From positions 372,001 through 436,000 of the forward strand of contig JANFAH010000006.1 in assembly GCA_024663395.1 (NCBI GenBank): DNA of 64,000 nucleotides. The letters run 5' to 3'. Positions 1-56,800 of this stretch are shown here, piece after piece. The translations under genes were made by a program, and so were the position numbers. The notes beneath the pieces were generated by a model. The model had not been told where the DNA came from. It ran no database searches and worked only from the letters and a program-made list of their open reading frames with translations. Position 1 is the first letter of the stretch. Each line of letters begins with the position of its first letter. This DNA comes from Pisolithus tinctorius (Eukaryota > Basidiomycota > Agaricomycetes > Boletales > Pisolithaceae).

Positions 1-3000
1 GGTGTGAACATGGCCAGAATACTTCCACCACCTGCCATGGCTCCACTCACCAACTGTGAATGCAAGTCAAAAAGGGTGGGAGCGAGCATGGTCAGAATCC
101 TTCCACCACCTGCCATGGCTCCACTCACTGCCTATGGATGCAAGTCCAAAAGGGTGGGTGTGAACATGGTCAGAATCCTTCCACCACCTGCCCATGGCTC
201 CACTCACCTCCTATGAATGCAAGTCCAAAAGGGTGGGAGTGAACATGGTTAGAATCATGCCACCACCTGCCATAGCTCCACTCACCACCTATGAATAGAA
301 TTCCAAAAGGGTGGGAGTGAACATAGTCAGCATGTTTCTACCACCTGCCATAGCTCCACTCACTCTCTATGAATGCAAGTCAAAAAGGTTGGGAGTGAAC
401 ATGGTCAGAATGCTTCCACCACCTGCCATGGCTCCACTCACTCTCTATGGATGCAAGTCCAAGAGGGTGGGAGAGAACATGGTCAGAATCCTTCCACCAC
501 TTTCCATGGTTCCACTCACTCTCTATGAATGCAAGTCCAAAAGGGTGGGAGTGAACATGGTCAGAATCCTTCCACCACCTGCCATGGCCCCACTCACTCT
601 CTATGAATGCAAGTCAAAAAGGGTGGGAGTGAACATGGTCAGATTGCTTCCACCACCTGCCATGGCTCCACTCACTCTCTATGAATGCAAGTCAAAAAGG
701 GTGGGAGTGAACATGATCAGAATCCTTCCACCACCTGCCATGGTTCCACTCACCTCCTATGAATGCAAGTCCAAAAGGGTGGGGGTGAAAATGGTCAGAA
801 TCCTTCCACCACCTGCCATGGCTCCACCCACCTCCTATGAATGCAAGTCAAAAAGGGTGGGAGTGAATATGGTCAGAATCCTTCCACCACCTGCCATGGC
901 TCCACTCACCTCCTATGAATGCAAGTCAAAAAGGGTGGGTGTGAATATGGTCAGAATCCTTCCACCACCCACCATGGTTCCACTCACTCTCTATGAATGG
1001 AAGTCCAAAAGGATGGGAGTGAACATGGTCAGAATCCTTCCACCACCTGCCCATGTCTCCGCTCACTTTCTATGAATAAAGTCCAAAAGGGTGGGAGTGA
1101 ACTGCTATGGCTCCACTCACCTCCTATGAATGCAAGTCCAAAAGGGTGGGAGAGAACATGGTCAGAATCCTTCCACCACTTGCCATGGCTACACTCACAA
1201 ACTATGAATGCAAGTCAAAAAGGGTGGGAATGAACATGGTCAGAATCCTTCCACCACCTGCCATGCCCCACTCACTCTCTATGAATGCAAGTCCAAAAGG
1301 TTGGGAGTGAACATGGTCAGATTGCTTCCACCACCTGCCATGGCTCCACTCACCTCCTATGAATGCAAGTCAAAAAGGTTGAGAGTGAACATGGTCAGAA
1401 TCCTTCCACCACCTGCCATGGCCCCACTCACTCTCTATGAATGCAAGTCCAAAAGGGTGGGAGTGAACATCATCAGATTGCTTCCACCACCTGCCATGGC
1501 TCCACTCACCTCCTATGAATGCAAGTCAAAAAAGGGTGGGAGTGAACATGGTCAGGATCCTTCCACCACCTGCCATGACTCCACTCACCTCCTATGAATG
1601 CAAGTCAAAAAGGGTGGGAGAGAACATGGTCAGAATCCTTCCACCACCTGCCATGGCTCCACTCACCAGCTATGAATGCAATTCCAAAAGGGTGGGAGTG
1701 AACATGGTCAGAATCCTTCCACCACCTGCCATAGCTCCACTCACCTCCTATGAATGCAAGTCCAAAAGGGTGGGAGTGAACACAGCCAGAATGCTTCCAC
1801 CACCTGCCATGGCTCCACTCACCTCCTATGAATGCAAGTCCAAAAGGGTGGGAGTGAACTGCCATGGCTCCACTCACCTCCTATGAATGCAAGTCCAAAA
1901 GGGTGGGAGTGAAAATGGTCAGAATCCTTCCACCACCTGCCATGGCCCCACTCACTCTCTATGAATGCAAGTCCAAAAGGGTGGGTGTGAACATGGTCAG
2001 AATCCTTCCACCACCTGCCATGGCTCCACTCACCAACTATGAATGCAATTCAAAAAGGATGGGAGTGGACATGGTCAGAATCCTTCCACCACCTGTGATG
2101 GCTCCACTCACATGCTATGAATGCAAGTCCAAAAGGGTGGGAGAGAACATGGTCAGAATCCTTCCACCACCTGCCATGGCTCCTCTCACTCTCTATGAAT
2201 GCAAGTCCAAAAGGGTGGAAGTGAAAATGGTCAGAATCCTTCCACCACCTGCCATGGCTCCACTCACTCTCTATGAATGCAAATCCAAAAGGGTGGGAGT
2301 GAACATTGTCAGATTGCTTCCACCACCTGCCATGGCTCCACTCACTCTCTATGAATGCAAGTCCAAAAGGGTGGGAGTGAACATAGTCAGAATCCTTCCA
2401 TCACCTGCCATGGCTTCACTCACCACCTATGAATGCAATTCCAAAAGGGTGGGAGAGAACATGGTCAGAATCCTTCCACCACCTGCCATGGCTCCACTCA
2501 CTGCCTATGAATGCAAGTCCAAAAGGGCAGGAGTGAACATGGTCAGAATCTTTCCACCACCTGCTATGGCTCCACTCACCTCCTATGAATGCAAGTCCAA
2601 AAGGGTGGGAGAGAACATGGTCAGAATCCTTCCACCACCTGCCATGGCTCCACTCACTCCCTATGAATGCAAGTCAAAAAGGGTGGGAGAGAACATGGTC
2701 AGAATCCTTCCACCACCTGCCATGGCCCCACTCACTCTCTATGAATGCAAGTCCAAAAGGGTGGGTGTGAACATGGTCAGAATCCTTCCACCACCTGCCA
2801 TGTCTCCACTCACTCCCTATGAATGCAAGTCCAAAAGGGTGGGTGTGAACATGGTCAGAATTCTTCCACCACCTGCCATTGCTCCACTCACAAACTATGA
2901 ATGCAAGTCCAAAAGGGTGGGAGTGAACATGGTCAGAATCCTTCCACCACCTACCATGGTTCCACTCACAAACTATGAATGCAAGTCCAAAAGGGTGGGA

Positions 3001-3790
3001 GTGAACATGGTCAGAATCCTTCCACCACCTGTGATGGCTCCACTCACCAGCTATGAATGCAAGTCAAAAAGGGTGAGAGTGAACATGGTCAGATCACTTC
3101 CACCACCTGCCATGGCTCCACTCACTCCCTATGAATGCAAGCCCAAAAGGGCAGGTGTGAACATGGTCAGAATGCCTCCACCACCTGCCATGGCTCCACT
3201 TACTCTCTATGAATGCAAGTCTAACAGGGTGGGAGTGAACTGCCATGGCTCCACTCACCTCCTATGAATGCAAGTCCAAAAGGGTGGGAGTGAACTGCCA
3301 TGGCTCCACTCACCTCCTATGAATGCAAGTCCAAAAGGGTGGGAGTGAAAATGGTCAGAATCCTTCCACCACCTGTCATGGCTCCACTCACTCCCTATGA
3401 ATGCAAGTCCAAAAGGGTGCAAGTGCACATGGTCAAAATCCTTCCACCACCTGCCATGGCTCCACTCACCTCCTATGAATGCAAGTCAAAAAGGGTGGGT
3501 GTGAACATGGTCAGAATCCTTCCACCACCTGCCATGGCTCCACTCACCTCCTATGAATGCAAGTCAAAAAGGGTGGGTGTGAACATGGTCAGAATCCTTC
3601 CACCACCTGCCATGGCTCCACTCACCTCCTATGAATGCAAGTCCAAAAGGGTGGGAGTGAACATGGTCAGAATCCTTCCACCACCTGCCATGGTTCCACT
3701 CACTCTCTATGAATGCAAATCCAAGAAGGTGGCAGTGAACATGGTCAGAATGCTTCCAGCACTTCCAGCACTTGATCCCCTCACATGCTA
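1..3790 (-). repeat. Tandem array of 50 units (~78 bp); each is a complete intron plus a 3-nt variable triplet on the minus strand
   Basis: Fifty units run from the window edge to 3790, spaced almost always 78 bp apart (77-79). Four are 54-55 bp, and the last unit is 81 bp from its neighbour. On the minus strand a unit reads donor GTGAGT, then CTGACCATG, then a pyrimidine-leaning stretch essentially free of AG, then GCATTCATAG, followed by a variable triplet and the next GTGAGT. The spacing leaves introns of about 75 nt and exons of 3 nt. The units lie directly downstream of, and on the same strand as, the GTPase gene at 3893-5661. The plus strand of the array can also be read as a 26-residue repeated peptide (MVRILPPPAMAPLT-x-YECK...). 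That follows from 78 being divisible by three, and it is broken by the 54-, 55-, 77- and 79-bp units. The array is cut by the left edge, so its total length is unknown. Confidence 0.95.
51..3787 (-). other. Fifty candidate 3-nt micro-exons (single codons) of the GTPase gene
   Basis: Lowest coordinate of each triplet, grouped by its minus-strand codon. GAG (17): 208, 754, 832, 910, 1121, 1354, 1510, 1589, 1745, 1823, 1878, 2580, 3259, 3314, 3470, 3548, 3626. AGA (15): 364, 442, 520, 598, 676, 988, 1276, 1432, 1956, 2190, 2268, 2346, 2736, 3204, 3704. GGA (4): 2658, 2814, 3126, 3392. TTT (3): 1199, 2892, 2970. Two each: TTG 51, 2034; GCA 129, 2502; GTG 286, 2424; CTG 1667, 3048; CAT 2112, 3785. 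AAA: 1067. In phase 0, set by the last body exon, these encode Glu 17, Arg 15, Gly 4, Leu 4, Phe 3, Ala 2, Val 2, His 2 and Lys 1. The intron joining the body to the first micro-exon would be 3904-3788 (117 nt), with an ACTAAT branch-like site and acceptor GGATAG. Splicing is inferred, not observed. Confidence 0.7.
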
Positions 3791-3892
3791 TCCGCCCAAT
3801 GCCACAGTCACATTAGTATTTATTATGTCCATTTCTTTTTACAATTTCACACACATTCTGTTGAAAAATCAGCATCTCCTGTACCCCACTCT

Positions 3893-5661
3893 CTATCTTC
3901 TTACATATGGAAACCATCTTGAGAGGTAAAATGCAAGTCCTGCTGGTGTGATCTTGCCCACCCTGTCCTTCATGCACATCTTCAATGTCCTGGCACACAT
4001 TAGTACATTCTTATCATTCAGCTATATCACCTACTTTGTTATTGCAAACTCTATACACAGTCCTAGGTTGGATTGCTGTGTTGATATGAGGAGCTGCTGC
4101 AGTCCTTCTTCACTCAATGCATTCACTGTGCATGTCAGTAGGGTTGTACAATCTGCACCCTCTTCTTGCATTCCTGCAGTCATTTCTATCAAGGGTGTGC
4201 CATTGCCAGGTGATGGTGAGGATACTGACCAGTGAGTGACAGATAGTCATGGGGTGGATACCTTAACTCTTTCAACCAACTATTGACCTTCACAAGACAC
4301 TCATTCAGCTTCCTTTTTTCTACATCTGCAGCCCATTCCACTGCATCATTTTCATCTGAATCATCACCCATGACCTCCAGGAGAGCATCCAAGGCCAAGG
4401 TATCTGTTTTTGTTAGCAATACAATTACAGGAACTGGGACAACAACACTGAAATTTAAACACATGAAATGGACTATAGGATAATTTACACACCATGCCCT
4501 GTATCACACTCATCAAAGAACTTCTTTTCTGCTGCTGTGACCATCCTGTGGCTTTCATTCAAAGGAATGCAAAACCTACATCAATCACAAAAATCATGTC
4601 ACTTTGGTGAAGGTGTCAGACATAGTGTCCCTACCATATCGCATGGATTCTCTTGTCAAGCTTGGTTGTCTTAGCACGATCCATCACGAATTCCTTCATC
4701 ATCTTAAACTCCCCTTCACTTCCCGCCTCAAATCCACGTGAGTCATGGAATACAAACCGTGGATTACTCTTGAAAACCAGCTCATCCTCAATGTTGTGTT
4801 CCCCACGCTGGATGCATTCAACCATTCAGCATACATTACAGAATATTCATGAAGTCACTTCACCTTTAGTGAACCCTGCACCAAGGTAGCATCCACCTGA
4901 ATACAGCCCGACACATCATTAATCTCGAGCAAATACCACGAAACATACACACCTTCTCTCCTTTCCCATTAAAAATTTCTGGTTGATCCGTAGTATTACA
5001 GACCCTCTGCAGGATTGTCGTTTTACCTGCATTGGCCCTGCCCATGACCAGAATGCGAAAGCGATCGATGCGATCGATGTACTCTCTAGCTTTCGCAGGA
5101 TCTAAGCTAATCATAGGGGATATCGCGGTTGACGCTGATGATCAAGGTTCTTAGACTTGTCCCATGAGCAGTGGGCAGCAAGTATGACGCTTACCCGCGG
5201 CTACTTCTTCAGTGTGTGCAGCAGGAGTATCCGCATTCTCTTCGGGAGAACATGGAACCGTGGGTTGCGCCCCGATTAGTGCAGGAGCGAGAGCACCTGT
5301 ACTGTTTGACGGAGAACCTGGCCAAGTAACTAAGTACACTTAGGGACCACATAAAGAACATAGTGCAACCACCTTGAATAGAGGCAGGAACGGGAATGTT
5401 CGTGTCGCTAAGACTAGGGCTAGGGGCCGGAGAACGTGGGTGAGTGTTCTCGACTGCCGTGTCAGCACGAACATCCCAAATATTGGCTGAGGGAGAGCGA
5501 GAAGCTTCGACAGGAACTTCAGTCAGCGCAAGAACGGGATCTCTACTGGCTGGGGGCTGAGCAGCTCCAACGGGAGCAGGAACTTGAGGAACAACTGCGT
5601 CGTCACGCGGAGAAGGCGGTTGCCGAATACAACACAATGCCTTGAACCATTCAGGAGTCAT
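3893..5661 (-). CDS. P-loop GTPase, body exons (C-terminus probably continues into the micro-exon array)
   Basis: I read nine exons on the minus strand: 5661-5373, 5329-5195, 5134-4953, 4896-4864, 4807-4635, 4575-4493, 4433-4230, 4173-4035 and 3989-3905, joined by GT-AG introns of roughly 45-65 nt. They sum to 1323 nt (441 codons) with every phase matching. The N-terminal ~140 residues are Pro/Ala/Ser-rich and look disordered. The G domain follows, with G1 GRANAGKTT, a switch-region HDSRG and G4 LTKTD. This resembles the large family of fungal AIG1/dynamin-like small GTPases; the cellular role is unknown. The last body exon ends ...SRWFPY exactly at a codon boundary, followed by GTAAGA. If that donor is not used, translation stops three codons later at a TAG (3893-3895). 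If it is used, the next acceptors are those of the repeat array at 1-3790. The start at 5661 (MTPEWFK) is the best candidate, although the frame stays open upstream to 5778. Confidence 0.85.
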
Positions 5662-13937: not shown

Positions 13938-14750
13938 TACTGTCGCTGACCGATGTCAAGGCGCCTATCGATAACCAAGTACAACTGTGACCTGCTGGTG
14001 GTGGCTTTTTCCAACACGAGTTCACGTTCTGTCACAGAAAATGGGCTGGTCAAGTCGACACTACTATTACATTCTTCGATCCATACTGCTCGGGTGTCTG
14101 TGGTCATGATTGAGTGTACCGTGAGGAAGATAGAACTGGACATGAGTGGTAAACGTCAAAGGAAAAAGAAAGAGAAGTTAGCATGCGATTCTGGAGTCTA
14201 AAACTAGATGTTCTGCAGGGTAATGCGCAAGAAACCACAATCAGAAGCGTCGAAGGAAATCAAAAGTCAACGGGATTGATGGGGGGGATTCGGATACATT
14301 CCGTTATCGGTCTAAGTAAAGTGAATAGGGCAGTTGGATAGAACGTGAACAGTAGGAAACATGGCGGGGGGAAGATCATACCACGTCGCAAGGGGGATTT
14401 ACAGTCAGGCAACGCCAATCTCGATAAAACTTCTCCACTTCCGTGAGGACACGCGCTCGTCCGAATCGGCGTTTAGACCGGCGCAGGGCGAGTAACAATA
14501 ATATCCTGCCGGTTGTTCTCGCCGTCGCCTTCTTCATCCTTGCCGTCGCTCATACTCATGAAGTTACTCTATCTGCATCCATCTCCACGCTCCACGGCCC
14601 AGCAATCCCAATCTTCCTCTACCTTCTAGAAACGCTAACACATCCATTTTGCTCCGCATTCTGGTCGATGAGGTGGTGCTCTCTGAGCGCGGAGGTGAAC
14701 ACGCACGACGCTGGTAAGAAAGCTTATGTGTGTCCGCTTCACCGTCTGAG
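13938..14750. repeat. Copy B of the diverged segmental duplication
   Basis: This is the partner of the segment at 5755-6965. It begins about 10 bp after the decarboxylase stop codon and ends inside the unknown membrane-protein gene at 14564-15631, whose minus-strand tail (RSKMDVLAFLEGRGRLG) has a counterpart in copy A. It lacks about 400 bp present in copy A. Since copy B is joined in frame to a longer gene, it may be nearer the parent arrangement; that is inference. Confidence 0.75.
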
Positions 14751-15631
14751 AATGCCCGTGAACGAGGAGAGAAAGGTGGTCGCGAGAGCAACGACGAATC
14801 GTCCCCGACAACACCGAGTGGAATGCGCGGCGGTATGAAGATCGGGGCGAATGAAGTGTTAAGAGTACGTTCAGAGATTATGTATACGAGGATATAGAGG
14901 GTGCAAGCGAAAGATACGGACGCGATGGTTGTGCCAGTCCAGGGTGTGATGGGCTCGGGGGGACTCAACCAAGGAGAAGGCGGCTGCGACCCTGCGCTCG
15001 GAGAGTTGTTGAGTAGTAAAGACATACCTGCCGATGAGGACGCTACCGAAGGTCTGGGAGTGACATCAATGGCACCGGCTTCGGAGAGGGTATATTTCGC
15101 AAATGACTCTCGTGAAGGTCACCGAGACGCGACCGGTACAGCAAGTTTCGGAGGGAGAGGAAGAACACGTTTAGGAGTGAATGCGATATGCCTCTCACAT
15201 CGGCTGCGCAGGTACGTCAGCACGAGTACGCAATATGGATCAGGAGGAAGCACAAGCCGCGGCTCAGTTCTGAGGTGCAGAACGTCCAACTGGTCGATCG
15301 TGACAACATGAGAGGTCTGTTGACGATTACGCTGCGTCTGACTCGCTACAGACCTAGCAGAGCTGCTTGCTAGATCGAGATACAGGAATGACCGCAACTC
15401 GACCGTGTCGCGTCTGCCTGTCCGCAGTGTAAAGTAGTAGGCAGATGGGTCGTCGTCGACATCGTCGAGGGGGACGGTCTCTGGGGATGTCTGCAAGAGA
15501 CCCAAAGTGAACAGGGCAGAGTAGCCAGAGGACAGACACCGGGTGGACATTGCCGCACAGCGAGTGCCCTCGAGGTCACCATACACATACATACTAGGGT
15601 CCATTTTGTTCATCTGGTTATCGAATTGCAC
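14564..15631 (-). CDS. Unknown membrane protein
   Basis: Two long minus-strand frames (15631-15119 and 15025-14564) plausibly join by an intron near 15117-15050. The first part includes MSTRCLSSGYSALFTLG and an acidic DDVDDDPSAYYFTL segment. The second has a Pro/Ser-rich linker, one clear membrane segment (TTIASVSFACTLYILVYII), then an Arg/Ser-rich tail with PPRSESTTSSTRMRSKMD. That tail and what follows are shared with the other duplicate around 6605-6990. I do not recognise the family. The exact exon boundaries and the C-terminus (an acidic DGKDEEGDGENN segment probably follows an intron) are uncertain. Confidence 0.4.
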
Positions 15632-50853: not shown

Positions 50854-53800
50854 TCAGGTGGTACAGTTGTAGAAGCGAAAGGATACCCTACCAGGTGAGC
50901 GAGTGTTTTGAAGGGTGGATTGCACAAGTTGGCGTTCGTCGTCAGACAAGGAGTCCATGAGTCGCACGAGGCCATCAATCGATGCTTTGCGGTCCTGCTG
51001 AGCGGCGTCAAGGAAACGTTGCAACAAGTACTCTGTCCTGAGTTGGGTCACGGCTGGCGCAAGGTCGAGTTCCTCCAAGGCCGTCGCAAGGGCACGGTTG
51101 TCCGCGGGATCAGAAGTACACACGAAGGAGTCCAAAACCTTGGTAAGGAGCTCTGGACTAGCCTCTGGGTTGGCCTCAGCGAGTGTGTCCAATGCCACAG
51201 AACGTGCAAGTCGTGCCCGAAGAGCCCAGTAGAAGAACCGACGCGCTTGCTTCCACACGGCAGGTTTAGCACACCCTTTGGCTTCCATACGGCCGGTCCG
51301 ACTGTAAGGAGTAAACACACAGCTTCAACTAAAGTAACGAATCACTTACTCATGCAGGTCAGCATAACAACGCAATTTGCTTGTAGATTGGTTGAAGAAG
51401 AGTCTCTCTCTCCGCCAATGCCTGCGACGCTTTAGCTCTCTCTTCTGCAGTTTTACTGGAATCCTTGCTGTCTGCCTTGAGCGACGCATAGGTCGAGTCA
51501 AGACGCTCCATCAAAGACAAGATCTTATCGCGGCGCATCTTGATTTCGATGATGCCTTCGGGTTCGAGCACACCAGCACGGGCTTCGACGTCTGCGTACA
51601 TCTCCATCTTTTGCGAATTGATAGAGGGATCGAGGACGACCCATGCTCCACCACGCAATTCGCCATTCGGGACGATGTAGACGAAGACGGGTTGCTTGTA
51701 GCTCGATAGGCCATCAACAATCTTGGAACCCTGCTTCAGGACTTCGTCGTACATATCCTGCTGACCGCCAGAGAAACCACGCCAGTTGGCAAAGATGATG
51801 AGGGGGAGCCCTTCCCGATTGAAGTCGAATATAGCCTGTGCTGTCTTGTAAGCTGAATTGGGATACCAGACTTGTCCCGCCTCCATCACACGCTGTTCGA
51901 AGGATGCAGGGTTGGCGGGATCCGCAGGGACAATTCGCTCAATTGTCCGAGTCTCGACAGCAATTACCCCCATGGGTATACCCCCCAATCTTGCACGACC
52001 AACGACAACGGTTTGCGCCCAACCCCCAAGCGTTTCCTGGAAAGAGCCTTTGTCGAAGAAGCCAGGCAAATACTGCGATGTCTGTTCATCTTCTTTACCC
52101 TCGAGCATCCAACGAGGATCATAAGGACCTTTCGGTGGTACATAACCAATCTCCCGATCCCACGTGTCCGGCGTTTCACGAACAGGAAGAGAGTCGCCCT
52201 TCGCCCGTGGGACATATGACAGCCACTGGAGTATATGTGTTACACCTTCTAGGTCGCTGCTAGCGGTCAAGTGGGAAACTCCGTTCTTGTACATGATTTG
52301 AGTGCCACCGAGCTGCAAGTTCGATGCATAGACTTCCCGGCCCAGGACTTTGTTTAGTGCAGGGGCACCAGTCAGAATGATTGGTTGACCCTCGACTTGG
52401 ACCGCGCGTTCACCAAGGCGAACCAAGTAAGCACCGATACCGACGGAACGTGCAGTTACCAGGGTGATAGTGAAAATATCGTCATATGCGCGCGACGTCT
52501 CCCCAGCAATAAGACCAGATCCCTTCAAGGACTCCACACCGAGGCCGTCCTGGAGACCGATAATATCCGTGATCTTGTAGCGGAGCTCTCCATTAACCTC
52601 TACCTCTTCTGTGCGGATGGCAGAGGCGGCCTTCTCCTGCACTTTGAGGAAGTTTTCGCGAGTCAGGTAGAGATATTCGAACCCTTTCTCTGGCTGGTCT
52701 TCTTCATACCAGGCGCAAGAGAAGAGGTTCATGACTTCTTCAGCCAACCCTATGCGCGCACCGGAGTTGGCAGAGAGGTAAATTCGAGGGAGACCACGAG
52801 CCCTTGCATATTTCGTTGCGAGGTAGAAGAATTGATCTTCCACAGGGCCAAACGAGCCAATCTTGTATGTAATGTCATTTGCGATGACGACAGCCTGGCG
52901 ACCTTCTGGGAACTCGGGCGTCCTTAGGGTGAACACCCACGCGATCATACCGAATGTATTGTTTCCAGGAGCACGATCAACTTCTGTGAGCTCGTCGTGT
53001 TCGTCCAAGACAAGCTCCTTCGCCTCTAGGAATTTCTTGGGGAGGTTAAGAGACGAATCTTGGCTGCGCGCCTTAATCCAGATGTTTTGAAGCGCTTTAG
53101 AGAATAATTCAGGGAAATCGTAGACGTATGTAGTGCCCACAAGGTGTGCTTGGTAGCGCTTGGGCTGCAACGACTCCTTTGTCGGGTACGCATGGCTGAC
53201 AGGCTGAAGGTGAAGAGGGCCCTTCTCCCCAATTGATTTGAGAATTATGGTGCCCTTATCAGTAGTAATTTCCTGGTACGCATTGAAGTTGACCACGAAG
53301 CCGGAGACGTTCTCAATAATGCACCGGATGGGAGTGACGTTGCCCTCGTTGTCCTCAAGCGCAATGCGAATTTCTGATCCAGTGACATGGAGACGCCAGA
53401 GTCGCTTACCGTGACGCTCGATGAAGCCTGAGATAGCTGCTAAAACGTCCTCATAGGAGACTGCCAGGTTGTATACAAAGTTCATGAAAATGTGGTTGCA
53501 ATCCGCGTTCCGGTATTGGGCATTGACAACCTCGAGTGCATCCAGGATACTGGTCACAAGGCGGTCAGTCTCTGAGATGAGGTACTCCGCCATGCTCATC
53601 GATCCACGGAGACGGCCAGGACGAACAAGAGCACGAATAAAGAACCGGCTGTCTAACTGGTTCTCGCGAGCCACGGCATGGTAAATATGAATCTGCTTTG
53701 TTTCAACAAAGACGGGGGTGAGCTTGTAGTTGGAAAGGCGACTGAGTTCAAGCTGGAACGCCAGGGCAGGCTCTATGTTACGGATAGCTTGCTCTTCCAA

Positions 53801-56800
53801 CCAGATGTGGTTGGAGCTCCGGAACGTGAAGTACATGGGGTACTGGCCGCGGCGGCAGATGAGAATGCTGATACGACGAACACCTCGTTTGACTAGAGTG
53901 GGGTTGCGCTCATTGACGAATTCGGTTAACTTCTCGGCCCATGTTTCCTCTGGCATGTCATCCGCCTTCTCGAAGATGCGCAGGGCAAGGTTCAGGACGT
54001 TCGGGGGCTCTACGCTGCCGTAACGACTTTGGAATTCGCCGACGTCGAAAACAGGGAGAAGAGCTGCCACTTTCTCAAAACCGCGTGAAAGCGCCGTTGA
54101 ATTTGAGAACGAAGCGATGGCACCCATACGGACGGGTTGTGAGTGGTTGCGACTGATTAGGTAAGTCAAATCGCTAACTGATCCTTGGCGTCTCGGGTCA
54201 CTAGTGGTTCGTGCGAGTCAGTGGCTGAACATTGCTGAAGATCAGCGACTTGGATACTCACGGTGCATTCACTCGGGGCGTCGCCGGAGGGGAGTGAGAA
54301 CGACCTAGATTGAATTGCCAAGTCACCGCCGTAGGAACATCTCCGTCATCTTCGCCATCACCCTCTTCGTAGTCTATGGACAGCAGTGAGTATGCTCGGT
54401 AGGCACGGCGGACGTAAACTTCGAGGGCGGCTGTTCAGGGTGTCAGCAAAGCTTCCTTCTTAACGATCCCAACAACTTACCCATGGTGACATGGGGATCT
54501 GGGTGCGCGAAGAACGAAGGAAGCACATCATAGACTGTGTAACGAGAATCGCTAAGTTCGCGTAATACCTCGGCGGAAGGAGCTCTGCAACGCGTTAAAA
54601 CACATCATGTTTCATAGGATTCGGTTTCCTTACCCGCTTGCGGCCCCCTGTTCACCGTAAACGCTGGAACTCACAGAGGCTTTCAAGATGGCCTCCATCT
54701 GCACGAGACGCTCCTCATACGATGGCATTTGCCCAAGGATCAACACCTCACGAGCCTTCAACGAAACACTTGTCGACGATCTATTGCCTTTTGATCAGCA
54801 TAGTCAACGGGGGGAAAATACGTAAGGACTGACTTAGACTCGAGCGCAGCGAGACTGCTCAGAACTTGGTAGAGCCGACTTTCGGGATTCGAGACAGGCA
54901 GACCGCTTGACTTCACGTAATCCAGGATGGAGAGAACAAGCTTGGATTTGCTCTGCGCCTTGGTGTGACTCAGGACGAGCGCGACAACTTTATCAAGATC
55001 GTCCTTGTACTGTTCCCGAAGATTCAAAACACGAGCCTCTATACTTCCGCCAAAGAGCTTCTCCGTGGATTCGTAGGCGGAGAGTAGATTAGCAAGAGTG
55101 TACACCTCATGGCCCTTGAGTCCACCCATGAAACGCTCGAGAACGTCGTATAGCGCACTCAGTTGCGTGCGGAACATGGCTCGGTCCTGAGGGAGGATCG
55201 AGTCTTGAATGTAGTGCTCCAGAACTTTCTTGATGCGAACGGCTGGGAACTCTTGCGCATCACTCTTCGATTTGGCAGTATCAATGGCTGCGCGAATGCC
55301 ATCTTCAAGTCTCGAGGGCATACGACCAGCAAGCGCAGATAGGATGGCAGTAACCTCGGAGTAGGGCAATTCGGGGTCATGAAGCACTTCAATCAGCTCC
55401 TTGAATGTTGACGCCATGATGGCCTGGTTATCGTAACCTTCAAGGATATCGTTGAGAGTACCCATGCAACGCAAATATCGTTGATGGGGTTTGTTGCCTA
55501 CGATGCCAGGGTAACCCATTGGCGGGAGGAGGCCATCGAATGGCTTGGCATGTTTAACGCGAGCAGGGTCGTCGAGCGTCAAGATACCAAGAATGTCACC
55601 AGGCTCGAGACTGACGCCAGGCTGCTTGACAAACTGCACGACACCATCCTCGGCGGCGACGAGGGGCATGTACATTTTCATGACCTGCCAGATATCATCA
55701 GAATGGAGTCTAAAGTACCGCATTGGGCAAGCAAACCTCAATTTCAGCATATTGTTCCCCGGCTTTGATGTGGTCGCCACTGTCAACCAAGAAGCGGATC
55801 AACTTTCCAGGGCTGGGACTCCGGAGTTGGGTAGGATCGTTCTCCTGCTCAATGAGACACGTTTTGGAGTCGACCATCAGACGCAGTGCGCCGACTTCCT
55901 CTCTCCAATATACGGAATGGCTACGACCGTCGAGAACGACAAGTAAACCGCCATCCGCGAGAGGGCGCCCGCCCACCATCGTTCGGCCACCATTTAAGAA
56001 AAGCGTCCACATATTCCTTGACGACCGTGCACATGTAAAGGTATAGCGAGTGTTCTCGTAGATGAAGTCCACGCTAAAAACAGTCTTTAGCAAGTCGCGC
56101 ACGGGAACTTGTCCCTTGTCCAGGATCCGTTTATACTCGCTGAGGCATGCTTCAGCAGCGAGATGAGCCTTAGTGACGGCACCACAAACAACGGCAAGAA
56201 TTGCGTCAGGGCGCTCGGCAGTCAGCTTGCTGCTGATGAGCGAGTCGAGCCAACCCGTGGTGAAGGTGTTCTCTTTAAATGCTTCCAGCTCGAGAAGCTT
56301 GATGAGGTACTCAACAGTCGTCCTAAAGTCGCCGCGAATACTGAGTTCCTTGAGTGCGACAATCATGTTCTTGCGACTTTCACTGCGATCTTCACCATAC
56401 GCGAAGATATGACCGAATTGTGAATCAGCGAACTCGTGAAGTCCACCAGCGGAAGCGACGGAGAAGTAACCCCAAACATTTTTACTCGAGCGGAAATTAA
56501 GCTCTTGCAACGATCCTGATGAGGGCTTAAATCCGGCATCTGGGTTTTCGGCAGTGATACGGACGGCGACGACATGGCCTTTTGGCTGCGGTTTACGCTG
56601 CAGCTGATTCGATTCCGGCTTTATCATGTCAAAGTCAATCTCGGATGAAGCATTCGGACCAACGCCGAACAACTGCCTGATATCCCGAATGCGGTGCAGA
56701 GGGAGACCCATGGCAATCTGGAGCTGCGCAGCTGGGAGGTTGACGCCAGTGACCATCTCGGTTGTAGGGTGCTCGACTTGCAAACGAGGGTTAAGCTCCA

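Follow-up and report, generated by a model that had tools for sequence, protein, structure and literature searches.

Single-codon exons predicted between tandem introns in a Pisolithus GTPase gene family

How is a gene read when it runs into dozens of near-identical repeats, each of which resembles an intron and leaves exactly three nucleotides before the next one begins? This question is raised by a 64,000-nucleotide stretch of the ectomycorrhizal fungus Pisolithus tinctorius (C6:372001-436000, hereafter the window; the genome comprises 92.5 Mb in 221 contigs), in which a GTPase gene on the minus strand is followed by a tandem array of such units. The reading we favour, with a probability of about 0.88, is that the array units are introns, spliced so that the single-codon exons between them join in frame.

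Within window positions 1-3787 the array presents 50 ATAG-NNN-GTGAG junctions on the minus strand. A scan allowing at most two mismatches per flank returned 49 of them; the fiftieth is the CAT at 3785-3787, which lies beside unique flanking sequence. The junctions are mostly 78 nt apart, with some spacings of 54/55, 77 and 79 nt and one of 81 nt. The array extends past the left edge of the window to approximately C6:370981 and comprises 64 triplets, or words, in total. The residue string predicted from these words, HREEEGEERGLFFGRGEAVRRRHLREEELEERERFEKREEERRRRRVEALERFEEEFFERRERM, contains no stop. This anatomy agrees with the original prediction, made from the sequence alone, which had described tandem units leaving exactly 3 nt between introns, ten kinds of triplet in the window with no stop among them, and a body exon ending in phase 0; the end lies at 3905, directly before GTAAG. 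The in-frame TAG at 3893-3895, read-through to which had been named as a point that would speak against splicing, is real and sits inside the predicted first intron (Table 1). An equivalent stop ends the deposited proteins P0001 and P0012 (...WFPYVRR), so read-through forms are annotated as well.

Evidence that array triplets appear in a protein comes from a sister gene on C41. The deposited P. tinctorius protein P0022 (BKA82DRAFT_4223615) reads WFPF-HLVVDGGQGHYGLVGHYGLLVVDVLRGGHHVDYVRRYGDLDYNRL-SQVKDSG. On C41 the body match of its gene ends at 56272, the tail is found at 51798-52013, and the region C41:53001-56300 (L062, L063) holds an array with a period of 80. The triplets of this array give, in order, CAT and then LVVDGGQGHYGLVGHYGLLV-G-VDVLRGGHHVDYVRRYGD. 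The comparison covers 40 readable triplets, of which 39 are present in P0022 in the same order; the last six residues of the P0022 string, LDYNRL, fall in an unfetched stretch. The one skipped triplet is a GGA, and the intron that follows it has the acceptor TTTGTAG instead of TTCATAG. Both the C41 array and the P0022 insert begin with H, like the predicted CAT start of the window array. P0022 thus spells the triplets of a sister array, which supports the central claim of the original prediction, namely that the units are introns and that each repeat contributes one codon in frame.

Further support for this claim comes from short contigs that resemble RNA, whose open reading frames (ORFs) carry inserts at the corresponding place. 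Several proteins tagged 'lgn' come from contigs of 1.4-2.6 kb with unbroken ORFs of 406-555 residues. Since the gene of one of them, P0133, is split by introns in the genome and yet its ORF is unbroken, we took these contigs as RNA assemblies. P0133 (1695 nt contig) carries 44 residues after WFPNTK; the deposited protein P0114 has 0 residues at this place and 99.7% identity over the 354-residue body. P0135 (519 amino acids, 1703 nt contig) and P0154 (555 amino acids, 1889 nt contig) both reach the C-terminus, with 36 and 43 residues, respectively, at the insert place. Together, P0022 and the 'lgn' ORFs support the removal of array introns from mRNA at loci other than that of the window. P0036 contains a 50-residue codon string followed by GVGGVMAGGAVC, and P0066 a shorter string followed by VSRGVMDCSGCMLIMF. 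By eye, the read-on sequence of both resembles translated array introns, VSGVMADGGGCMLTCS for C41 and VSGAMAGGGSILTMF for the window family. In the deposited models P0127, P0137, P0141, P0143, P0160, P0163 and P0168, from several Pisolithus species, WFPN is followed by one to three varied residues and then VS..., which looks like retention of the first array intron and suggests that arrays occur throughout the genus.

The position of the inserts is consistent. In an alignment of 29 relatives the inserts of P0008, P0016, P0017, P0135 and P0154 fall at one place. Relatives from P. microcarpus that lack an insert read ...WFPY-PSISHSRQSLNIPTFS...GIGAILVFEYLYFLLQ..., and the C-terminal exons of the window gene, which read PTMTNYSSAVQMPTLATSQQHSMQFIAAYGIG, an intron and AILVFEYLYFLLQANKVNG..., were found beyond the array at window -1424 to -1795 (L009 8576-8205). 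The array therefore separates the GTPase body from a conserved C-terminal part. The original idea of a free C-terminal tail was not borne out, because the residues would form an internal stretch ahead of the conserved C-terminal exons. A structure model of P0135 (mean pLDDT, the predicted local distance difference test, 69.6) assigns values below 50 to residues 367-407, the insert, which lie between a GTPase with helices and a helical C-terminal part.

The triplets themselves form a restricted vocabulary. We analysed 441 words from 16 arrays (ten fetched loci, C41 and five arrays from the genome listing), leaving out the array of C4, a duplicate of C29, and a false TGA junction upstream of CAT in C6b. 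These words comprise 31 kinds and include no stop, against a null mean of 39.2 and a minimum of 24 in 1000 permutations. Within a locus each amino acid is nearly always represented by one codon: 134 kinds encode 129 amino acids, a surplus of 5 compared with 14.7 under the null (minimum 8 of 500). TAG and CAG are strong splice acceptors and GAG is a weak one. Among words that create an acceptor with the following G, those making TAG occur twice (null 60.9), CAG five times (20.1), AAG 68 times (71.9) and GAG 153 times (74.9); counted by kinds, the CAG set numbers 4 versus 7.8 (p 0.059), which leaves its depletion unclear. Words with GT at positions 2-3 (NGT) occur twice (null 40.8) and those with GT at positions 1-2 (GTN) 12 times (45.4). 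The vocabulary seems to reflect a requirement that the true junctions remain unique.

Stepwise intron removal could also proceed without translation of the triplets. Arrays acting as recursive-splicing ratchets would lose their introns one after another, with the 3-nt pieces mostly skipped as landing pads and the body joined to the C-terminal exon. Insert-free models that stand beside near-identical insert-bearing ones would fit such a scheme, as in the pairs P0114/P0133 and P0007/P0008 (in P. microcarpus, P0008 has a 56-residue insert and P0007 none, with 10 mismatches over 573 columns), and so would the one C41 triplet missing from P0022. The inserts of P0135 and P0154, however, occur in ORFs that reach the C-terminus, and landing pads need neither avoid stops nor keep one codon per amino acid. 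We consider ratchets without translated triplets unlikely.

The window array, which the original prediction had treated as a single array at one gene, is real and is one of many in the genome; deposited proteins suggest that arrays occur in several Pisolithus species. The 75-nt unit matches at least 830 places in the genome. The pattern ATAG-N(k)-GTGAGT, summed over both strands, occurs 134 times for k=2, 2127 for k=3, 176 for k=4, 143 for k=5 and 124 for k=6, so that among these spacings there is an excess at 3 nt only; the k=3 pattern reversed occurs 350 times. Five clusters were recognised by eye among 100 listed genome matches. Four of them (C1:2.78M, C2:1.546M, C2:4.401M and C2:5.880M) are found immediately 3' of a match to the GTPase body in the same orientation, and the fifth, at C2:4.832M, has no GTPase body match among the matches listed. 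All 11 array loci that were fetched, of which C29 and C4 are duplicates of each other, share flanking DNA over approximately 650 bases to many kb at ~76-100% identity. We compared the edges of the array region across these loci. Besides the arrays that begin with CAT, that of C27 begins with AAT, and the scan of C13b begins later. The last junction, ATAG-ATG-GTGAGC, lies in unique 3' flank at 10 of the 11 loci, and C13b has GTAG there. The C44 array is a short one, with ten codons predicted to read HRWFEGFFEM. Outside the array, the segments C29:1-15000 and C4:6001-21000 (L046, L047, L053, L055) share 99-100% identity across more than 11 kb, and the arrays themselves are nearly alike; both lie near contig starts and are likely haplotype or subterminal duplicates.

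Such dispersal raises the question of origin. A mobile introner might have inserted copies beside itself, so that the triplets began as insertion leftovers; this account is compatible with the splicing claim, and we rate it about as improbable as the ratchets. An intron consensus that is identical in 9 of 11 loci, despite flank divergence of up to ~13%, is what a common source would produce. Adjacent triplets, on the other hand, are identical in 63 of 317 pairs compared with 53.4 expected from shuffling, which gives little sign of a duplicated target, although a tandem array offers no clear expectation of how such a duplication would appear. Furthermore, four of the five clusters placed among the listed matches are in one gene family, and the words avoid competing splice sites, which scars need not do.

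The introns carry the signals of the U2 type: GT donor, branch and AG acceptor. Of 289 introns of 75 nt from the 11 loci, 276 have an intact GTGAGT, 260 an intact CTGAC and 272 an intact CATAG. Column variation is lowest at donor, branch and acceptor (0.007, 0.024 and 0.012 versus 0.035 elsewhere), and the original prediction had described the splice bases adjoining the triplets as nearly constant; the units were found by matching the donor and acceptor motifs, which inflates the figures for these two. None of the 289 introns contains an AG between branch point and acceptor, and neither does any of 26 introns of 74, 76 or 78 nt. We compared this absence with the spectrum of intron variants in ten arrays (C4 left out, 75-nt introns only), taking the expectation from the observed mutation types. 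No variant kind out of 143 creates an AG between branch A and acceptor; the expectation was 10.3, and 5000 simulations never came down to the observed value. For the sequence upstream of the branch, AG-creating kinds number 23 of 120, where 21.0 were expected. In the window array taken by itself the count between branch and acceptor is 0 of 29. That premature acceptors are lacking both there and in the family further supports the claim of one codon per repeat, and the depletion of AG is evidence that individual copies function as introns.

Triplets and introns differ sharply in variability. Over the 289 introns the three triplet columns have entropies of 1.87, 1.88 and 1.50 bits; the next highest column reaches 1.06 and most stay below 0.4. 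In ten arrays with at least 15 units of modal length, C4 included, the fraction of differing sites is 0.58-0.67 for triplets and 0.011-0.098 for introns, which makes it 7-55 times higher in the triplets. For the window introns the consensus departs from that shared by the nine loci at 1 of 75 bases, for those of C40 at 3, and the locus flanks differ by up to ~13%. Because the consensus is shared while the triplets vary, the introns are homogenised or constrained genome-wide and the words are not. Intron variants are weakly linked to words, with p ≤ 0.01 on the 3' side in four of ten arrays and on the 5' side in one of ten, and with the opposite direction in C41. This linkage is weak and mixed, and shows neither pure unit duplication nor full decoupling of words from introns. 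We infer that arrays exchange sequence and that varied codons are favoured by selection; a mutation process targeted at the triplet may be an alternative source of variation.

These patterns bear on another alternative, an ordinary minisatellite in one long intron that is removed whole or lies beyond the stop at 3893-3895, its triplets never being translated. Tandem arrays in introns are common, P0001 and P0012 end at the equivalent stop, and several relatives join the body directly to the C-terminal exon. A minisatellite gives no account of variants that shun new AGs only between branch and acceptor, of triplet columns far more variable than every intron column, of a deposited protein that spells the triplets, or of an excess at spacing 3 with none at 2, 4, 5 or 6. 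On the new-AG test we rejected the plain minisatellite and regard it as slightly less probable even than the preceding alternatives. Lastly, an antisense protein of 26-residue repeats (LPPPAMAPLTxYECKSKRVGVNMVRM), each with one hypervariable residue and with the sense splice signals incidental, might be read into antisense frames open for 329 codons in C10 and 469 in C6a and into the equality of 78 nt with 26 codons, but it is very improbable and was rejected, since units of 54/55, 77 and 79 nt break the frame in several arrays, the silent third position of a Thr codon would fall on one of the triplet bases, which is nevertheless as variable as its neighbours (1.50-1.88 bits), a lack of premature AGs has no meaning in antisense, and the deposited protein follows the sense triplets.

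On the plus strand of window 1-3760 the antisense of the array is open over long stretches, with at most 469 codons listed, as 26-residue repeats with one variable residue. Such long antisense open frames are a by-product of the 78-nt period.

Several observations weigh against in-frame splicing of single-codon exons. The origin of the P0022 model, whether from transcripts or from software, is not stated. The tag 'lgn' is undefined and was assumed to denote contigs assembled from public sequencing runs, and the genomic arrays matching P0133, P0135 and P0154 were not read. One 'lgn' protein, P0072, ends in WFPYADGFYG with no long string, and its longest contig measures 6075 nt. For the window locus itself no transcript was seen; its deposited model, P0015, ends before the array, as do P0012 and many others. 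No insert is present in P0003, P0005, P0007, P0010, P0013, P0023, P0112, P0114 and P0150, and nine relatives in the 29-sequence alignment reach the C-terminus without one; in such cases the array may not exist, may be skipped or may have escaped annotation. Four introns of 51/52 nt lack CTGAC. The permutation tests on words treat loci as independent despite their common ancestry, which makes the p-values optimistic. Finally, the NTA words (GTA, CTA, TTA and ATA), which are not stops, are equally depleted, and the depletion of stops is therefore in part an effect of the vocabulary. For this reason we rejected stop depletion as stand-alone proof; one rule, the avoidance of competing acceptors, covers the depletion of stops and of NTA words alike.

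The host gene upstream of the array encodes a G-domain GTPase. Its P-loop GTPase motifs, GR-NAGKTT and TK(x)D, are invariant or nearly so among the 29 aligned relatives. Matches to MMR_HSR1, Arf and Septin are weak: at E ≤ 0.01 Pfam returned only weak G-domain-type matches, in five members, and those to MMR_HSR1 and Arf are near the Pfam cut-offs, some just below. By tblastn, residues 1-70 and 156-224 of P0015 are 100% identical to the window locus, and the matches of its remaining exons extend into introns at their ends; P0012 and P0008 cover the rest of the body. Irga6/IIGP1 and relatives ranked first among PDB fold matches to the P0135 model, with template modelling (TM) scores over the query of at most 0.28, too weak for classification. 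The features of the locus are collected in Table 1.

Table 1. Positions of the GTPase body and the predicted array exons and introns in the window
Feature	Window coordinates	Strand	Basis
GTPase body, from MTPEWF... (5661) through the G domain to ...LSRWFPY	3905..5661	-	tblastn on the locus and sequence
G-domain matches in the body	5114-4905, 4810-4634, 4574-4476, 4434-4228, 4174-4034	-	tblastn
Predicted first intron of the array region	3788..3904	-	donor GTAAGA at 3904, TACTAAT branch-like site, acceptor GGATAG
Predicted first single-codon exon, CAT (His)	3785..3787	-	CAT is the first word in 9/11 fetched arrays
49 further predicted single-codon exons, introns mostly of 75 nt, GTGAGT...CTGAC...CATAG	1..3784	-	continues to C6:370981 (L009 8981-10000)

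Other sequences near the arrays were noted. Window 13941-15570 holds a second, partial copy of the DNA that lies directly upstream of the array gene at other loci, at ~78-84% identity. A 405-codon open frame with a zinc-finger, proline-rich look by eye occupies the minus strand of L060 3877-5000 together with L051 1-91, and the DNA around it is common to the C44, C27, C29 and C4 loci. ORFs at L009 2542-3331 and 444-1451 resemble, by eye, a DDE-type transposase and a zinc-knuckle retrotransposon gag.

How might splicing of such an array proceed? Two splice sites separated by three bases cannot both be occupied simultaneously, and we therefore surmise stepwise removal by intron definition. At the window locus the repeats would be removed one after another, and ~64 exons of one codon each would come together as a variable stretch of the protein. 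The removal of each intron would bring the growing exon next to the following GTGAGT donor. A single 75-nt intron left in the message in frame terminates at the TAG of its acceptor, and a transcript spliced incompletely would therefore yield a protein cut short after the GTPase body. Since each exon is a whole codon, the gain, loss or skipping of a repeat would not shift the frame. The near-identical introns may serve as homologous spacers for unequal exchange within and between arrays; such exchange would homogenise the introns while selection at the protein level would keep the codons diverse. The inserted peptide may perhaps have a role in nonself recognition, which we rate as less likely than not. 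With a similar estimate, less likely to be right than wrong, the whole family might constitute a codon-cassette diversity generator: a shared pool of approximately 1,800-2,000 single-codon exons, each carried by a near-identical intron, in which codons would be shuffled, gained and lost singly and without frameshift to give each copy a new peptide for self/nonself recognition.

Among the titles and abstract openings of the matches listed in a search of the open-access literature (subscription literature not covered), no tandem array of single-codon exons was found. The nearest working analogue would be HET-D/HET-E (NWD) of Podospora anserina, in which tandem repeats are homogenised within and between family members while a few codons diversify under selection (PMC1805685). 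Homogenised repeats with few diversifying codon positions would be common to both systems. In HET-D/HET-E, however, the coding WD unit is what repeats, whereas in Pisolithus homogenisation concerns intronic sequence and variation concerns one-codon exons; a coding WD, ANK or TPR repeat, as expected of HET/NLR proteins, is not what is homogenised. The micro-exon genes (MEGs) of schistosomes likewise have many short exons, mostly multiples of three, and vary their proteins by splicing; their exons measure 6-81 bp (3-81 in its abstract), the vast majority 15 bp, between introns of 100 to almost 5000 bp (PMC10526429). The Pisolithus arrays differ in that the pieces are 3 nt, the introns are near-identical and mostly 75-77 nt rather than long, and the protein is a GTPase rather than a secreted protein. 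That splicing of 1-3 nt pieces is possible is shown by a 1-nt exon of Arabidopsis APC11 and by 3-nt alternative exons, for which the authors favour intron definition with recursive splicing (PMC4674806); these exons are isolated and do not follow one another by the dozen. Like introner elements, the arrays place many near-identical spliceosomal introns in one genome. A term search of the main text of one introner study found no occurrence of 'tandem', 'Pisolithus' or 'microexon' (PMC9860276).

Very small exons are known to be missed by annotation (PMC8831610). Since most models of the Pisolithus genes stop at the array or skip it, our analysis suggests that for many GTPase genes of these ectomycorrhizal fungi the models now available lack the variable part. 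If single-codon splicing is confirmed, these genes would represent an architecture in which the exon is a single codon and the intron is the repeat, providing hypervariability without frameshift and without a coding repeat. Such an architecture would strain what is known of splicing, as dozens of acceptors and donors three bases apart would have to be used in order. The arrays would also offer a natural setting in which to test intron definition, recursive splicing and the grammar of splice sites.

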